DNA of 64,000 nt, from contig JASJCA010000014.1 in assembly GCA_030066215.1 (NCBI GenBank), forward strand, positions 1-64,000, given 5' to 3'. The translations under genes were made by a program, and so were the position numbers. Source of the DNA: Rhodobacter sp. (GTDB taxonomy: Bacteria; Pseudomonadota; Alphaproteobacteria; Rhodobacterales; Rhodobacteraceae). The notes beneath the pieces are model-generated. The model saw only the letters and a program-made list of their open reading frames with translations, ran no database searches and was not told where the DNA came from. Below, piece after piece: positions 51,786-63,901 of the stretch (its first letter is position 1; each line of letters begins with the position of its first letter).

Positions 51786-52373
51786 ATGCAGATGCCGTTT
51801 GACGCCCTGAACGACGTCTCGGACGAGGCGCTGCTGGTCGCCTACGGCAACGGCGATGCCGAGGCCGCGCGGGCCTTGACGCTCAGGTTGACGCCCAAGG
51901 TGCTGGGCTTCGCGGCTCGCATGCTGGGCGGCGACCGGGCCGAGGCCGAGGATGTCGCGCAAGAGGCGATGCTGCGGCTCTGGCGCCAGGCGCCGAGCTG
52001 GCGGCAGGGCGAGGCGAAGGTCACGACCTGGCTCTATCGCGTGGTTGCCAACCTCTGCACCGACCGGTTGCGCAAGGCAAGCGGCGTGGCGCTCGACGCC
52101 GTTCCCGAGCCGGAGGACGACCGGCCGAGCGCCGCCGAAGGCCTGCAACAGGCCGCCCGCGCGGCGGCGCTGGACCGGGCACTGGCGGATCTGCCAGAGC
52201 GGCAACGACAGGCGGTTGTGCTGCGCCATATCGAGGGGCTGTCGAACCCCGAGATTGCGGCAGTGATGGACATTGGCGTCGAGGCGGTCGAAAGTCTGAC
52301 CGCCCGGGGCAAACGGGCGCTGGCAAAGGCCCTGGCCGGTCGGCGCGAAGAACTGGGGTATGACGATGGCTGA
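51786..52373 (+). CDS. RNA polymerase ECF sigma factor
   Basis: 195 residues. Region 2 (AEDVAQEAMLRLWRQAPSWR) and region 4 (LPERQRQAVVLRHIEGLSNPEIAAVMDIGVEAVESLTARGKRAL) are intact. Region 4 HTH suits -35 recognition of extracytoplasmic-stress promoters. It overlaps the next gene by 14 bases. Likely controlled by the membrane proteins encoded downstream. Confidence 0.9.
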   Translation: MQMPFDALNDVSDEALLVAYGNGDAEAARALTLRLTPKVLGFAARMLGGDRAEAEDVAQEAMLRLWRQAPSWRQGEAKVTTWLYRVVANLCTDRLRKASGVALDAVPEPEDDRPSAAEGLQQAARAAALDRALADLPERQRQAVVLRHIEGLSNPEIAAVMDIGVEAVESLTARGKRALAKALAGRREELGYDDG

Positions 52374-53884: not shown

Positions 53885-55240
53885 TCACGCCGCGCACCGC
53901 CCCATCGTCACCTGGTTGCGCCCCTCGGCCTTGGCGGCATAAAGCGCCCGATCGGCGCGATCGATCAGCGTCGCCGCAGCTTCGGCATTGCCGCCCATCA
54001 CCAGCCCGGCGCTCACCGTCACGGCGATGCCGCCCGGGACGCCGGGCAACGCCACCGTCGACCCGCCGACCGATTGCCGCAACCGGTTCGCTGCGCGTCG
54101 CGCCTGGGCGACGTCGCAATTGCGGATAACGGCCAAAAACTCCTCGCCGCCGATCCGCGCCAGCACGTCCTGACGACGCAGGCACGCCTGCATCCGCTGC
54201 GCCACGTCGCGCAGCACGACGTCGCCTGCGGCATGCCCGAAGCGATCGTTCACCGACTTGAACCGGTCCAGATCGAGCACCATCACCGCGAACCGCTCGC
54301 CGGATTGCTGTGCGGTTTCCGCCACCGCGGCAAGGGCCCGCTCGGCGTAGCGGCGGTTATAGAGCCCGGTCAGCTCATCGGTTTCGGCGAGCCGAAGCCC
54401 GTCCTTCAATGCCGCGCGCGCCCGGTCGTCGCGCGCCTTGCGCGCCATTTCCCGCCGCAGCCGCAACGCCAGTTCCTCGGCGTCGAAGCCAGTCTCCATC
54501 AGATCGCTGACGCCGAGGTCCAACGCCAGAACCGTGCGCTCCGGATCCGGCCGGTCCTCGACCAGAACGATCGCAGAGCGCAGCGTCTCACTGCGGCAGC
54601 GCAGATCGGCCACCAGCGTCACCGCGGACGCCGACCCGCCCGCCATCACGATCGCATCCGGCGCGGCCGCATCGATCGCCGCAAGCGCCGTGTCAGGGGT
54701 CAAAAGCGTGATCCGGTCGCGGATCCGCGGCGCCAGCGCCGTCTTCCACCGCAGTCCTGCTGCCGCCGTGGATGCAATCAGCGCAACCCGACCAGGCGGC
54801 GTCAGCGCGGGCGTCGGCGCCTCGGCAAACCCGAAGGCCGGGGCATCCTCGCGCGCCAATTCGCGTTCGGCCGCGCGCCGGCGCAGCAGGTTGCGGATCC
54901 GCGCCCGCAACAGACCGATATCGGGCGGCGCTGCCATAACTGCGTCCGCCCCCGCTTCGAGTTGCTCCAGCCGCGCCGCTCGGGCTTGATCGGCGGTCGT
55001 CACGACGATCGGCACCTGCGCCATTCCCGGAACCGCTTTCAGGCGCCGGCAGAGCTCCGCGCCGCCAGCCGCCATCGCCGCCGACAGAACCACAAGATCG
55101 GGGGTCTGGGCCTGCGCCATCGCCACGGCCTCGGCGCCGGTATCGGCCTGCGCGATGTCATAGGCCGCCGCCGACAACCGCGCCTTCAGGATGATCCGGT
55201 TGGTGGCCAGATCGTCGGCGATAAGAATGCGACCCGGCAT
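53885..55240 (-). CDS. PleD-like diguanylate cyclase with degenerate receiver domains
   Basis: 451 residues, as for Caulobacter PleD: two receiver domains and a GGDEF domain. GGEEF is intact (364-368) and the product-inhibition RxxD site (355-358) is in place, so it should make cyclic di-GMP. However the REC1 phospho-acceptor Asp53 is Ser (LVVLSAAM), the conserved Lys is Ala (AVMAAPPD), and REC2 also lacks an Asp at that point (AIVMAGGS). Phosphorylation control is likely lost. ATG at 55240 is the family start. Divergent from DUF3572. Confidence 0.9.
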   Translation of the reverse strand: MPGRILIADDLATNRIILKARLSAAAYDIAQADTGAEAVAMAQAQTPDLVVLSAAMAAGGAELCRRLKAVPGMAQVPIVVTTADQARAARLEQLEAGADAVMAAPPDIGLLRARIRNLLRRRAAERELAREDAPAFGFAEAPTPALTPPGRVALIASTAAAGLRWKTALAPRIRDRITLLTPDTALAAIDAAAPDAIVMAGGSASAVTLVADLRCRSETLRSAIVLVEDRPDPERTVLALDLGVSDLMETGFDAEELALRLRREMARKARDDRARAALKDGLRLAETDELTGLYNRRYAERALAAVAETAQQSGERFAVMVLDLDRFKSVNDRFGHAAGDVVLRDVAQRMQACLRRQDVLARIGGEEFLAVIRNCDVAQARRAANRLRQSVGGSTVALPGVPGGIAVTVSAGLVMGGNAEAAATLIDRADRALYAAKAEGRNQVTMGRCAA

Positions 55241-55335
55241 GGTTCCTCGCAATTTTAGCCAAATCTTGTATGTCCCCTTCAGTTTTCGCCCAGATAGGTT
55301 AAAAATTGGTTGCAGTTTTTCCAAGGAGTCGGGCA

Positions 55336-55614
55336 ATGCAGCAGGATCGCGCCGAGATCATTGCCGCCCAAGCTTTGGCCTGGCTTGCCGCCAACGATGA
55401 CCTGCTGCCGGTGTTTCTTGGCTCCACCGGCGCCTCGGCCGACGACATTCGTGCCCAGGTCGGAGATACTGATTTTCTCGGGTCGGTGCTGGACTTCCTG
55501 GCGATGGACGATGCCTGGATCGTCGCCTTCTGCGACGCCGCCGGCCTGTCCTACGAGACCCCGATTCTAGCTCGCCAGGCGCTGCCGGGCGGGGGCCAGG
55601 TGCACTGGACCTGA
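55336..55614 (+). CDS. DUF3572 family protein
   Basis: 92 residues, matching DUF3572 (AAQALAWLAANDDLLPVFLGSTGASADDIR; GSVLDFLAMDDAWIVAFCDAAGL). A small all-helical cytoplasmic protein of unknown function, typically next to pleD in Rhodobacteraceae. ATG at 55336; an earlier start would run into the pleD upstream region. Confidence 0.82.
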   Translation: MQQDRAEIIAAQALAWLAANDDLLPVFLGSTGASADDIRAQVGDTDFLGSVLDFLAMDDAWIVAFCDAAGLSYETPILARQALPGGGQVHWT

Positions 55615-62159: not shown

Positions 62160-62294
62160 CTCCGGACATTGAATGATGTGTTCGTGCCAGGCCAAATCCA
62201 AAGGCAGGCATCGCCGCCAATAGCATTCATGCGCTAGCGGTTTTTTAACCCGGCCACGGTACCGATGCCGCCAGACATCGAGAGAGGCGGCGCC

Positions 62295-62882
62295 ATGCAC
62301 GGTCTGATCAACCGGTCGATCCAATGTTTCCTCCGGGACACCTATGGGGCCGAGGCCTGGACCCAGATTGCTCAGCTCTCCGGTACTGACGAGGCAGGGT
62401 TCGAGGCTATGCTCCTCTACGACGATGCCGCCACCGGCGCCGTCCTGGATGCGGCCGCCAAACACCTGGAAAAACCGCACGACATGCTGTTGGAAGATCT
62501 GGGCACCTACCTGGTCTCCAACCCGCAGATCGAGGCGGTGCGGCGGCTGCTGCGCTTCGGCGGCGCCAGCTTCGTCGACTTTCTGCATTCATTGGACGAA
62601 TTGCACGACCGTGCGCGCCTGGCGGTGCCCGATCTCGACATGCCCGCGCTCGAGATGCGCGATCACGGGGGCGGCGCCTGGTCGATCGCGGTGACGCATC
62701 CGCATCCGGGCTTCGGCCACGTCATGGTCGGCGTCCTGCGGGCCATGGCCGACGATTACGGCGCGCTGGTGCTGTTGGACCATCAGGGACGCGTGGACAA
62801 GGCTGAAATCATCCGAGTGGAGCTGCTTGAGGCGAGCTTTGCCGAAGGCCGCGATTTTCATCTGGGGCTGCGCGCATCATGA
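62295..62882 (+). CDS. H-NOX (heme NO-binding) domain protein
   Basis: 195 residues. N-terminal MHGLINRSIQCFLRDTYGAEAW is diagnostic, and H104 (LDELHDRA) is the probable proximal heme ligand. The heme-propionate motif YxSxR is not seen; by eye its place reads VTHPHPG, that is VxHxH. H-NOX proteins bind NO (or O2) and signal to a partner cyclase or kinase. Its ATGA overlap with a diguanylate cyclase gene identifies that partner. ATG at 62295. Confidence 0.85.
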   Translation: MHGLINRSIQCFLRDTYGAEAWTQIAQLSGTDEAGFEAMLLYDDAATGAVLDAAAKHLEKPHDMLLEDLGTYLVSNPQIEAVRRLLRFGGASFVDFLHSLDELHDRARLAVPDLDMPALEMRDHGGGAWSIAVTHPHPGFGHVMVGVLRAMADDYGALVLLDHQGRVDKAEIIRVELLEASFAEGRDFHLGLRAS

Positions 62883-63901
62883 CCGTTCATATCACGCCGA
62901 AAATCACTCTGTCTTTGCCGTCGTTGGCGGCGCTGATGCCCATGGGTCTGGTCGTTGGACCGACCGGCCATATCGTGCAAATCGGCCCAACACTGGCCAA
63001 GCTGCGACCAGAGCGCGACCTTTTGGGGCAGCGGTTTCTGGAGCTTTTCGAACTCAAGCGACCGCGCCACGTCGTGAACATGGGGCACCTCAAGGCGGCA
63101 GCGGGCGCGCCGCTCAGCCTGCGGTTCCGCGACAACCCGCGGTCCGAGCTGAAGGGGCTCGCGGTGGCGCTCGAGGGCGAGGGCGGTCTGCTGGTCAACC
63201 TATCCTTCGGTATCGCGGCGGTCGAGGCGGTCGGCACCTATCAACTGTCGAGCAGCGATTTCCCGGCGACCGACTTGACCGTCGAGATGCTCTACCTGGT
63301 TGAAGCCAACGCCGCGGTGCACGCGGTGTCGCAAGACTTGCTGAGCCGGCTCGACAGCGCCAAGGTCGCAGCGCAGGAACAGGCCTTTACCGACACGCTG
63401 ACCGGGCTGAGGAACCGCCGGGCAATGGACATGGTGCTGGGCCGCTATGCTCGGCGGCGCGACAGCTTTGCGCTGATGCACTTGGACCTCGACCATTTCA
63501 AGGCGGTCAACGACACGCTGGGCCACGCCGCAGGCGATCACGTGCTGCAAGAGGTGGCGAAGATCCTGGTCGAAGAGACCCGCGCCGAGGACACGGTGGT
63601 GCGCCTTGGCGGCGACGAATTCCTGATGATCTTCCACAATCTCACCCGCCCCGACCAACTGACCCGCATCGCCGAGCGGCTCTTGGAGCGGTTGGAGGCG
63701 CCGATCATGTTCGGTACGGATCCCTGCGCAATTTCGGGCAGCATCGGTATCACCACGTCGGACACCTATACCGACATCGATGCCGACAAGATGTTGCATG
63801 ACGTTGACATGGCGCTTTACGCCTCCAAACACGCCGGCCGCGCGCAGCACACCTTCGTGGGCGAACCAGCCACCTCTGAAGGCCATGACACGGTTCATTG
63901 A
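62879..63901 (+). CDS. H-NOX-associated diguanylate cyclase (HNOBA-GGDEF)
   Basis: 340 residues. An N-terminal HNOBA/PAS-like domain (MPMGLVVGPTGHIVQIGPTL; FELKRPRHV), a coiled linker (about 140-168) and a GGDEF domain with GGDEF (244-248) and RxxD inhibition site (235-238). It makes cyclic di-GMP, with activity likely gated by NO through the H-NOX protein encoded just upstream. The last 99 bases of the window hold no complete gene. Confidence 0.9.
   Translation: MTVHITPKITLSLPSLAALMPMGLVVGPTGHIVQIGPTLAKLRPERDLLGQRFLELFELKRPRHVVNMGHLKAAAGAPLSLRFRDNPRSELKGLAVALEGEGGLLVNLSFGIAAVEAVGTYQLSSSDFPATDLTVEMLYLVEANAAVHAVSQDLLSRLDSAKVAAQEQAFTDTLTGLRNRRAMDMVLGRYARRRDSFALMHLDLDHFKAVNDTLGHAAGDHVLQEVAKILVEETRAEDTVVRLGGDEFLMIFHNLTRPDQLTRIAERLLERLEAPIMFGTDPCAISGSIGITTSDTYTDIDADKMLHDVDMALYASKHAGRAQHTFVGEPATSEGHDTVH

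Follow-up and report, generated by a model that had tools for sequence, protein, structure and literature searches.

In a 64,000-nucleotide stretch of Rhodobacter sp. DNA (hereafter the window), a minus-strand gene encodes a homologue of PleD whose first receiver domain (REC1) has lost its phospho-acceptor and the pocket lysine Lys105. PleD is a classic phosphorylation-activated c-di-GMP synthase. With a probability of about one half, we interpret the window protein as a phosphorylation-independent, probably product-inhibited diguanylate cyclase with a structural REC1, orphaned from DivK. Specifically, the PleD that the family inherited vertically would have been orphaned by the loss of DivK (and, by report, of the kinases DivJ and PleC) and would have become a cyclase whose REC1 no longer takes phosphate: REC1 would act as the fixed half of a REC1–REC2 pseudo-dimer, two chains would assemble on it without phosphorylation, and output would depend on the amount of protein and on feedback inhibition by c-di-GMP through RxxD. 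As judged from sequence comparison, this reading draws on the homology to PleD, the missing acceptor and Lys105, their repeated disappearance among family members, catalytic retention, uneven decay of REC1, and the lack of a divK next to pleD in most family loci examined.

A PleD homologue without a REC1 phospho-acceptor

The open reading frame runs from an ATG at 55240 to a stop codon ending at 53885, and its product begins MPGRILIADD (Table 1). Residues 1–448 match Caulobacter crescentus PleD (2wb4, phmmer E 4e-65; 1w25 alike), and structural alignments to PleD cover residues 2–449, with about one third of the aligned residues identical. Pfam assigns a receiver to REC1 and a GGDEF domain to the C-terminal part; for REC2 there was no Pfam match at E up to 1, and residues 151–286 form receiver-like alternating strands and helices in the AlphaFold model (mean pLDDT 93.8, pTM 0.77; 10-residue means of pLDDT 92–98 over residues 1–120). 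An earlier, sequence-only reading had taken the protein for a PleD homologue by length and domain order, which is borne out by the end-to-end alignment, the REC-REC-GGDEF order, and a position inside the PleD tree. The NCBIfam PleD equivalog NF007135 is also its best-scoring model, at 311.1 bits over residues 1–446, below the cut-off of 474. The closest matches of the AlphaFold model are all PleD, both activated and non-activated, at rmsd 8.5–17.1 Å, so the domain arrangement, and hence an on or off state, is unreadable from the model; the VIA list of the structural comparison tests mostly residues 149–451.

Table 1 Features of the PleD-like gene and its upstream neighborhood (positions in the window).
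Feature	Position	Strand	Basis
PleD-like diguanylate cyclase, REC1-REC2-GGDEF, 451 aa	53885..55240	-	ORF, Pfam, phmmer, AlphaFold model
REC1, now pseudo-receiver, residues 1-124	54869..55240	-	Pfam Response_reg 5-115; pocket decay across family
Arg15 in helix alpha1, family mark	55196..55198	-	146/151 family rows, 4/104 others
Ser53 (codon TCG) replacing phospho-acceptor Asp53	55082..55084	-	alignment to PleD
Val at PleD Phe102 column (beta5)	54938..54940	-	alignment to PleD
Ala replacing Lys105 (window residue 104)	54929..54931	-	alignment to PleD
REC2 adaptor, residues 150-272; no acidic pocket, no acceptor	54425..54793	-	alignment, AlphaFold model
GGDEF domain, residues 285-443	53912..54388	-	Pfam PF00990, 154 bits
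RxxD product-inhibition site, Arg355-Asp358	54167..54178	-	sequence
GGEEF catalytic motif, residues 364-368	54137..54151	-	sequence
Conserved intergenic element GGTTAA-N7-TT between DUF3572 and pleD	55297..55313	+	conservation in related loci
DUF3572 protein, divergent neighbor of pleD	55336..55614	+	Pfam PF12096, E 1e-31

The residue changes noted in the sequence-only reading, i.e., Asp53 to Ser and Lys105 to Ala next to intact GGEEF and RxxD motifs, are all seen in the sequence. Asp9, Asp10, and Thr83 are present, so that REC1 retains three of the five residues of a phosphorylatable receiver; with a PF00072 match, no acceptor, and a well-modeled receiver fold, it qualifies as a pseudo-receiver. 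Valine occupies the Phe102 column, which we take to be the switch aromatic of beta5, and the protein deviates at two otherwise conserved positions, with Ala in column 101 and Leu in place of Arg224. The Arg390 column and the catalytic GGDEF/GGEEF site are intact as well, and the protein may be an active diguanylate cyclase. REC2 had also been described as having no Asp: the residue is indeed absent in the window, but this is no loss, as Caulobacter PleD has Asn in that column and Asp occurs there in 7/104 non-family and 31/151 family rows of the alignment described below.

Two alternatives are that another residue takes the phosphate and that codon 53 was misread in sequencing. The window retains Asp9 and Asp10, which speaks for the former. 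However, the protein of locus L002, from the same genus and 68% identical to the window protein, also has Ser53, making an error unlikely, and the next two relatives, L003 and L004, have Ala and Val at this position. The window and these three loci form one starred tree group in which Asp53 is absent from all four members, which further argues against an error at the codon; with Lys105 gone and no acceptor in REC2, this pair of explanations is very improbable overall. The claim that normal phosphorylation is impossible in this PleD homologue is thus supported, and since other family members have lost the site repeatedly, this is no isolated case.

Recurrent loss of Asp53 within the family

We equate the family (code f1) with Rhodobacteraceae, since the tree places L031, a record named as Aliiroseovarius, within it. 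Of its 149 genomes, 133, including that of the window, have a match to the window protein at E 1e-40 or lower. We aligned 151 family rows (150 loci plus the window) with 104 rows of other alphaproteobacteria, the latter from 103 genomes since one (G283) was entered twice, as L175 and L275. Among the 132 other family genomes with a match, G022, G132, and G074 were left out; a second family match set of 58 others contributed its 18 closest new loci, with 12 already in and 28 left out; and outside the family, where 116 genomes had a match, 13 partial or GGDEF-only matches were left out. Because the 18 added family rows were the closest new ones, the family proportions given here are no unbiased census.

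Asp53 is kept in all 104 non-family rows and in 73 of the 151 family rows; the remaining 78 carry ten different residues instead (Ala 36, Ser 18, Gly 13, Asn 4, Glu 2, and five singletons). The full set Asp9-Asp10-Asp53-Thr83-Lys105 is found in 34/151 family rows versus 103/104 non-family rows, and 40/151 family rows look competent if Ser is allowed at 83. Even among the 73 Asp53-keeping family rows, 29 are without Asp10 (neither Asp nor Glu) or without Lys105. Clade-wide loss across Rhodobacteraceae, which the sequence-only reading had put forward for checking by alignment, is excluded by these 73 rows: as far as the alignment goes, the loss is recurrent and patchy.

The spread of residues at column 53 bears on whether a small molecule, e.g., c-di-GMP or (p)ppGpp, has taken the place of phosphate in a ligand-gated pseudo-receiver. 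PleD structures solved with c-di-GMP and ppGpp or pppGpp are on record (9g85 and 9g86, by their titles), and the c-di-GMP-binding pseudo-receivers ShkA and Cle are tabulated in an excerpt of PMC10333796. Against this, no single new residue has settled at column 53, and a literature search on (p)ppGpp-bound PleD gave no paper assignable to those structures. We consider this alternative unlikely.

To count the losses, we used a maximum-likelihood tree of 160 rows from which columns 9, 10, 53, 83, and 105 had been excluded. Loss-only counts gave 22 events on the tree as drawn, 11 with branches of support below 80 collapsed, and, as a conservative figure, 8 with branches of support below 95 collapsed, and simple parsimony gave 19 changes on this tree and 20 on a 255-row FastTree. 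As the 160-row tree is a quick one with long branches, and 59 of its 157 inner branches are weak, the count is trustworthy only as "several, about eight or more". The family is monophyletic on the PleD tree, with no outside row within it.

History of the locus: divK, DUF3572, and an intergenic element

No divK adjoins pleD in the window, where DUF3572 is the direct neighbor. Across the data set, divK lies directly before pleD in 96/104 non-family loci versus 5/150 family loci, and these five (L098, L120, L126, L129, and L134) fall near the tree base and all keep Asp53. Seven of the 149 family genomes gave a DivK match at E 1e-25, with 71–79% identity in three, and the window's genome, which is 89% complete, gave none at this threshold; at E 1e-35, 114 of 241 genomes of the class have a match. 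In the basal family members L120, L126, and L129, DivK is encoded beside pleD and is 71–79% identical to DivK from outside the family.

A passage of PMC2877005 describes DivJ-PleC-DivK as missing in one cluster of Rhodobacterales, and an excerpt of PMC9430884 reports that DivK and the kinases were lost in Rhodobacterales, with DivK in one species only, through a divK-pleD transfer. That excerpt allows DivK in a single species of the order, whereas here three basal family genomes have it. Horizontal divK-pleD transfer as the source of L120, L126, and L129 is unsupported, given the monophyly of the family on the PleD tree, though other routes may apply.

Loss of divK is excluded as a sufficient cause of acceptor loss by rows that have no divK and still keep the pocket, both within and outside the family. 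All eight non-family loci without an adjacent divK retain Asp53, and for five of them (L228, L239, L268, L273, and L274) the genome has no DivK match at E 1e-35. Within the family, the divK-less basal rows L110, L087, L101, L115, L113, and L118 keep the whole pocket.

The protein encoded divergently from pleD, DUF3572, had been suggested as a gating partner. It is the opposite-strand neighbor of pleD in 143/150 family loci, whether Asp53 is kept or lost, and lies next to pleD in at least 12 of 104 non-family loci, a lower bound since 78 of these loci had only 600 flanking bases; in 8 of the 12, divK lies between the two. These eight loci, ordered DUF3572-divK-pleD, have an intact phospho-pocket, from which it follows that the DUF3572 neighborhood predates the acceptor loss. 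Basal family members also carry divK between DUF3572 and pleD and, most simply, divK dropped out from between them. DUF3572 is absent from the fetched flank in 7/150 family loci, six of which have lost Asp53 (five of the six in one clade), so that, within the flanks searched, it looks not required. As an obligate partner DUF3572 is therefore unsupported; as a partner in the broader sense it has weak support, since the synteny is older than the loss.

The spacer between DUF3572 and pleD holds a conserved element, GGTTAA-N7-TT (often TTTC) on the DUF3572 strand, in 62/78 acceptor-lost and 45/73 acceptor-keeping rows, where shuffling expects 0.1–0.2. A loose form of it has 4 matches in the window's genome versus 10 for a reversed control, i.e., no regulon was seen there. 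The CtrA site is TTAA-N7-TTAA, a motif that is its own reverse complement, and by its letters the element resembles a diverged CtrA site. An exact site upstream of pleD is found in 1/151 rows. Forms with one mismatch occur in 28/150 rows versus ~6 after shuffling and forms with two mismatches in 117/150 versus ~40, an excess that largely stems from the conserved GGTTAA-N7-TT element, so that a diverged site of the CtrA kind may be present.

Elsewhere in the window, an ECF-type sigma factor with Sigma70 regions 2 and 4 (51786–52373, plus strand) lies ~1.5 kb past the 3′ end of the pleD-like gene. The window's genome (G000) has eight GGDEF matches, two of them within the window. A GGDEF protein with a borderline HNOBA match is encoded at 62879–63901 (plus strand), and its gene directly follows, with a 4-base overlap, that of an HNOB (H-NOX) haem-NO-binding protein at 62265–62882 (plus strand); judging by these domains, the gene pair at 62265–63901 is likely an NO- or oxygen-sensing c-di-GMP pair.

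Uneven receiver decay, helix alpha1, and known systems

Catalytic residues are essentially invariant among the 78 acceptor-lost rows: residues 327, 331, 332, 335, 336, 340, 344, 368, 369, 371, 372, and 442 are unchanged in every one, position 370 carries Glu in 76 rows and Asp in the other two, position 446 carries Arg in 77 rows and Lys in the remaining one, and Gly339 is retained in 70/71 acceptor-lost rows of a smaller set. The RxxD site is intact in 63 of the 78 rows and in the window; it is absent in 15/78 lost versus 5/73 kept rows (Fisher p 0.03, with ancestry uncontrolled). These 15 rows speak against product inhibition as a universal brake.

We compared retention at positions conserved outside the family, i.e., 49 in REC1 (conserved in at least 93% of outside rows), 15 in the linker and REC2, and 39 in the GGDEF domain, between lost rows, Asp53-keeping rows, and 41 pocket-complete rows (those with Asp/Glu10, Thr/Ser83, and Lys105). 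Mean retention for these three groups, in that order, was 0.52, 0.69, and 0.79 in REC1, 0.59, 0.68, and 0.75 in the linker and REC2, and 0.95, 0.96, and 0.96 in the GGDEF domain. Decay within REC1 is uneven. Switch residues are poorly retained in lost rows (Asp10 0.26, Thr83 0.31, Lys105 0.27, and Phe102 0.04), and Met55, Met56, Gly61, Leu85, and Gly94 have decayed as well; Arg91 (0.88), Arg115 (0.90), Gly98 (0.99), and Arg121 (0.97) are kept, as are Leu95, Leu112, and Leu119, along with Asp250 (0.87), Glu260 (0.97), and Arg264 (0.97) of REC2. In an independent-pairs test with 11 pairs, loss of Lys105 leans with loss of Asp53 (5.2 versus 0.3 pairs, median p 0.06), and Phe102, Asp10, Thr83, RxxD, and Ile16 show no joint change with Asp53. 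Since only Lys105 leans with Asp53, the joint loss of Phe102, Asp10, and Thr83 may mostly reflect shared ancestry.

The kept charged residues, Arg91, Arg115, Asp250, Glu260, and Arg264 among them, probably form the REC1–REC2 interface. In activated PleD, the two REC domains of one chain pair as an alpha4-beta5-alpha5 dimer that has salt bridges of the OmpR type, as stated in part of PMC8041772. Conservation of the catalytic site and of this presumed interface makes the "always on" state proposed by the sequence-only reading one good reading of the alignment. However, the WspR receiver dimer is already matched by the REC packing of PleD in its inactive, monomeric form (a passage of PMC2270323), so a kept interface cannot separate the active from the inactive state and would also be expected in an enzyme that stays off. 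A mostly silent enzyme, i.e., a protein that stays largely monomeric without phosphate and is kept for low synthesis or c-di-GMP binding, would accommodate this packing, and PleD goes from monomer to active dimer on BeF3, so that an acceptor-less version could stay off (PMC8041772, same part). Yet such a protein is hard to reconcile with the near-invariance of the catalytic residues in 78/78 lost rows alongside loss of RxxD in 15/78, and a c-di-GMP receptor should show the opposite, like PopA, which combines a degenerated GGDEF with RxxD (PMC10333796, excerpt). We therefore hold this option to be rather improbable, ranking it second among the rivals. For the phosphorylation-independent cyclase that we favor, we infer enzyme activity, phosphate-free dimerization, and feedback as the main brake; for WspR, phosphorylation-independent regulation has been proposed, and receiver active-site mutants were stated to equal wild type in vitro (unpublished there; PMC2270323, in a passage).

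Two observations run against a structural REC1: Asp9, which is Asp or Glu in 77/78 lost rows, and a conserved helix alpha1, neither of which a purely structural REC1 would predict. Arg15 is present in 146/151 family rows, 76/78 lost rows, and 4/104 non-family rows, with corresponding counts of 128/151, 71/78, and 0/104 for Ile16 and 130/151, 66/78, and 1/104 for Ala25. Kinases bind receivers at helix alpha1, so these marks look like a change in partner specificity. Given this, the main rival to our reading is a partner-gated cyclase, in which REC1, via the re-coded alpha1, would bind a histidine kinase without phosphotransfer, a polar protein, or DUF3572, and binding would switch the enzyme. 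A protein contact that outlived the acceptor is best argued from the alpha1 marks, which stay fixed after its loss, and an excerpt of PMC9430884 provides a parallel in the receiver-like Osp of Rhodobacter sphaeroides, which is reported to act unphosphorylated on CckA. Conservation of alpha1 could alternatively reflect a dimer interface or shared ancestry, Ile16 does not track Asp53 loss in independent pairs, and DUF3572 as the partner faces its ancestral synteny and its absence beside pleD in the seven loci described above. We regard partner gating as a minority prospect, albeit the strongest of the rivals.

The distribution of Arg15 also bears on DivK. Within the family, L098 and L134 already have it, with Asp53 retained and a diverged divK as neighbor, and it is absent in L120, L126, and L129, where DivK is well preserved. 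Outside the family, only four rows have it: L224, with a DivK match of 58% identity, and L228, L273, and L274, whose genomes gave no DivK match at E 1e-35; L239 and L268, also without a DivK match at that threshold, nevertheless lack Arg15. The link between Arg15 and DivK rests on few events and is suggestive at best. L228, L273, and L274 form one non-family group, and their Arg15 repeats the change seen close to the root of the window's family.

Taken together, PleD proteins of Rhodobacteraceae may form a natural series that begins with a phospho-switched enzyme and ends with a pseudo-receiver cyclase. In this series, DivK decay and loss and alpha1 re-coding came first, followed by repeated dismantling of the switch, and REC1 would have persisted to bind a protein or to support assembly, with a new input through alpha1. 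We advance this wider scenario tentatively, as one that may well not hold. Because the switch was lost several times and the enzyme is intact, annotation as a two-component response regulator is likely misleading for many family members. Close orthologues with and without the switch make pseudo-receiver control directly testable. According to part of PMC12632262, pseudo-receivers arose many times, and what switches bacterial ones on or off remains a mystery. PleD acceptor loss in this family was not described in the titles or opening abstracts of the full-text literature searched, with subscription papers mostly outside this set, and the whole words PleD and DUF3572 are absent from the main text of PMC9756655, on c-di-GMP genes in five alphaproteobacterial orders.

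Among known systems, the window protein is closest to Caulobacter crescentus PleD (1w25, 2v0n, and 2wb4), with which it shares the REC-REC-GGDEF order, length, GGEEF, RxxD, Arg390, and an acceptor-less REC2; unlike it, the window protein is without Asp53, Lys105, Phe102, and an adjacent divK, has a re-coded alpha1, and scores below the NF007135 cut-off. WspR of Pseudomonas, a REC-GGDEF protein, offers a likeness in its proposed phosphorylation-independent regulation, but it has one REC with an acceptor and belongs to the Wsp chemosensory system, and an effect of phosphorylation was not ruled out there (both from a passage of PMC2270323). Osp of Rhodobacter sphaeroides is likewise a receiver-like Rhodobacterales protein reported to work unphosphorylated (PMC9430884, excerpt), but is a single-domain CckA inhibitor and no cyclase. 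With the pseudo-receivers FrzS, ShkA, and REC2 of PleD, the window's REC1 shares a receiver fold without phosphotransfer residues (PMC12632262 and, for ShkA, PMC10333796, each in part); unlike other pseudo-receivers, it belongs to a family in which close orthologues with and without a complete pocket stand side by side.
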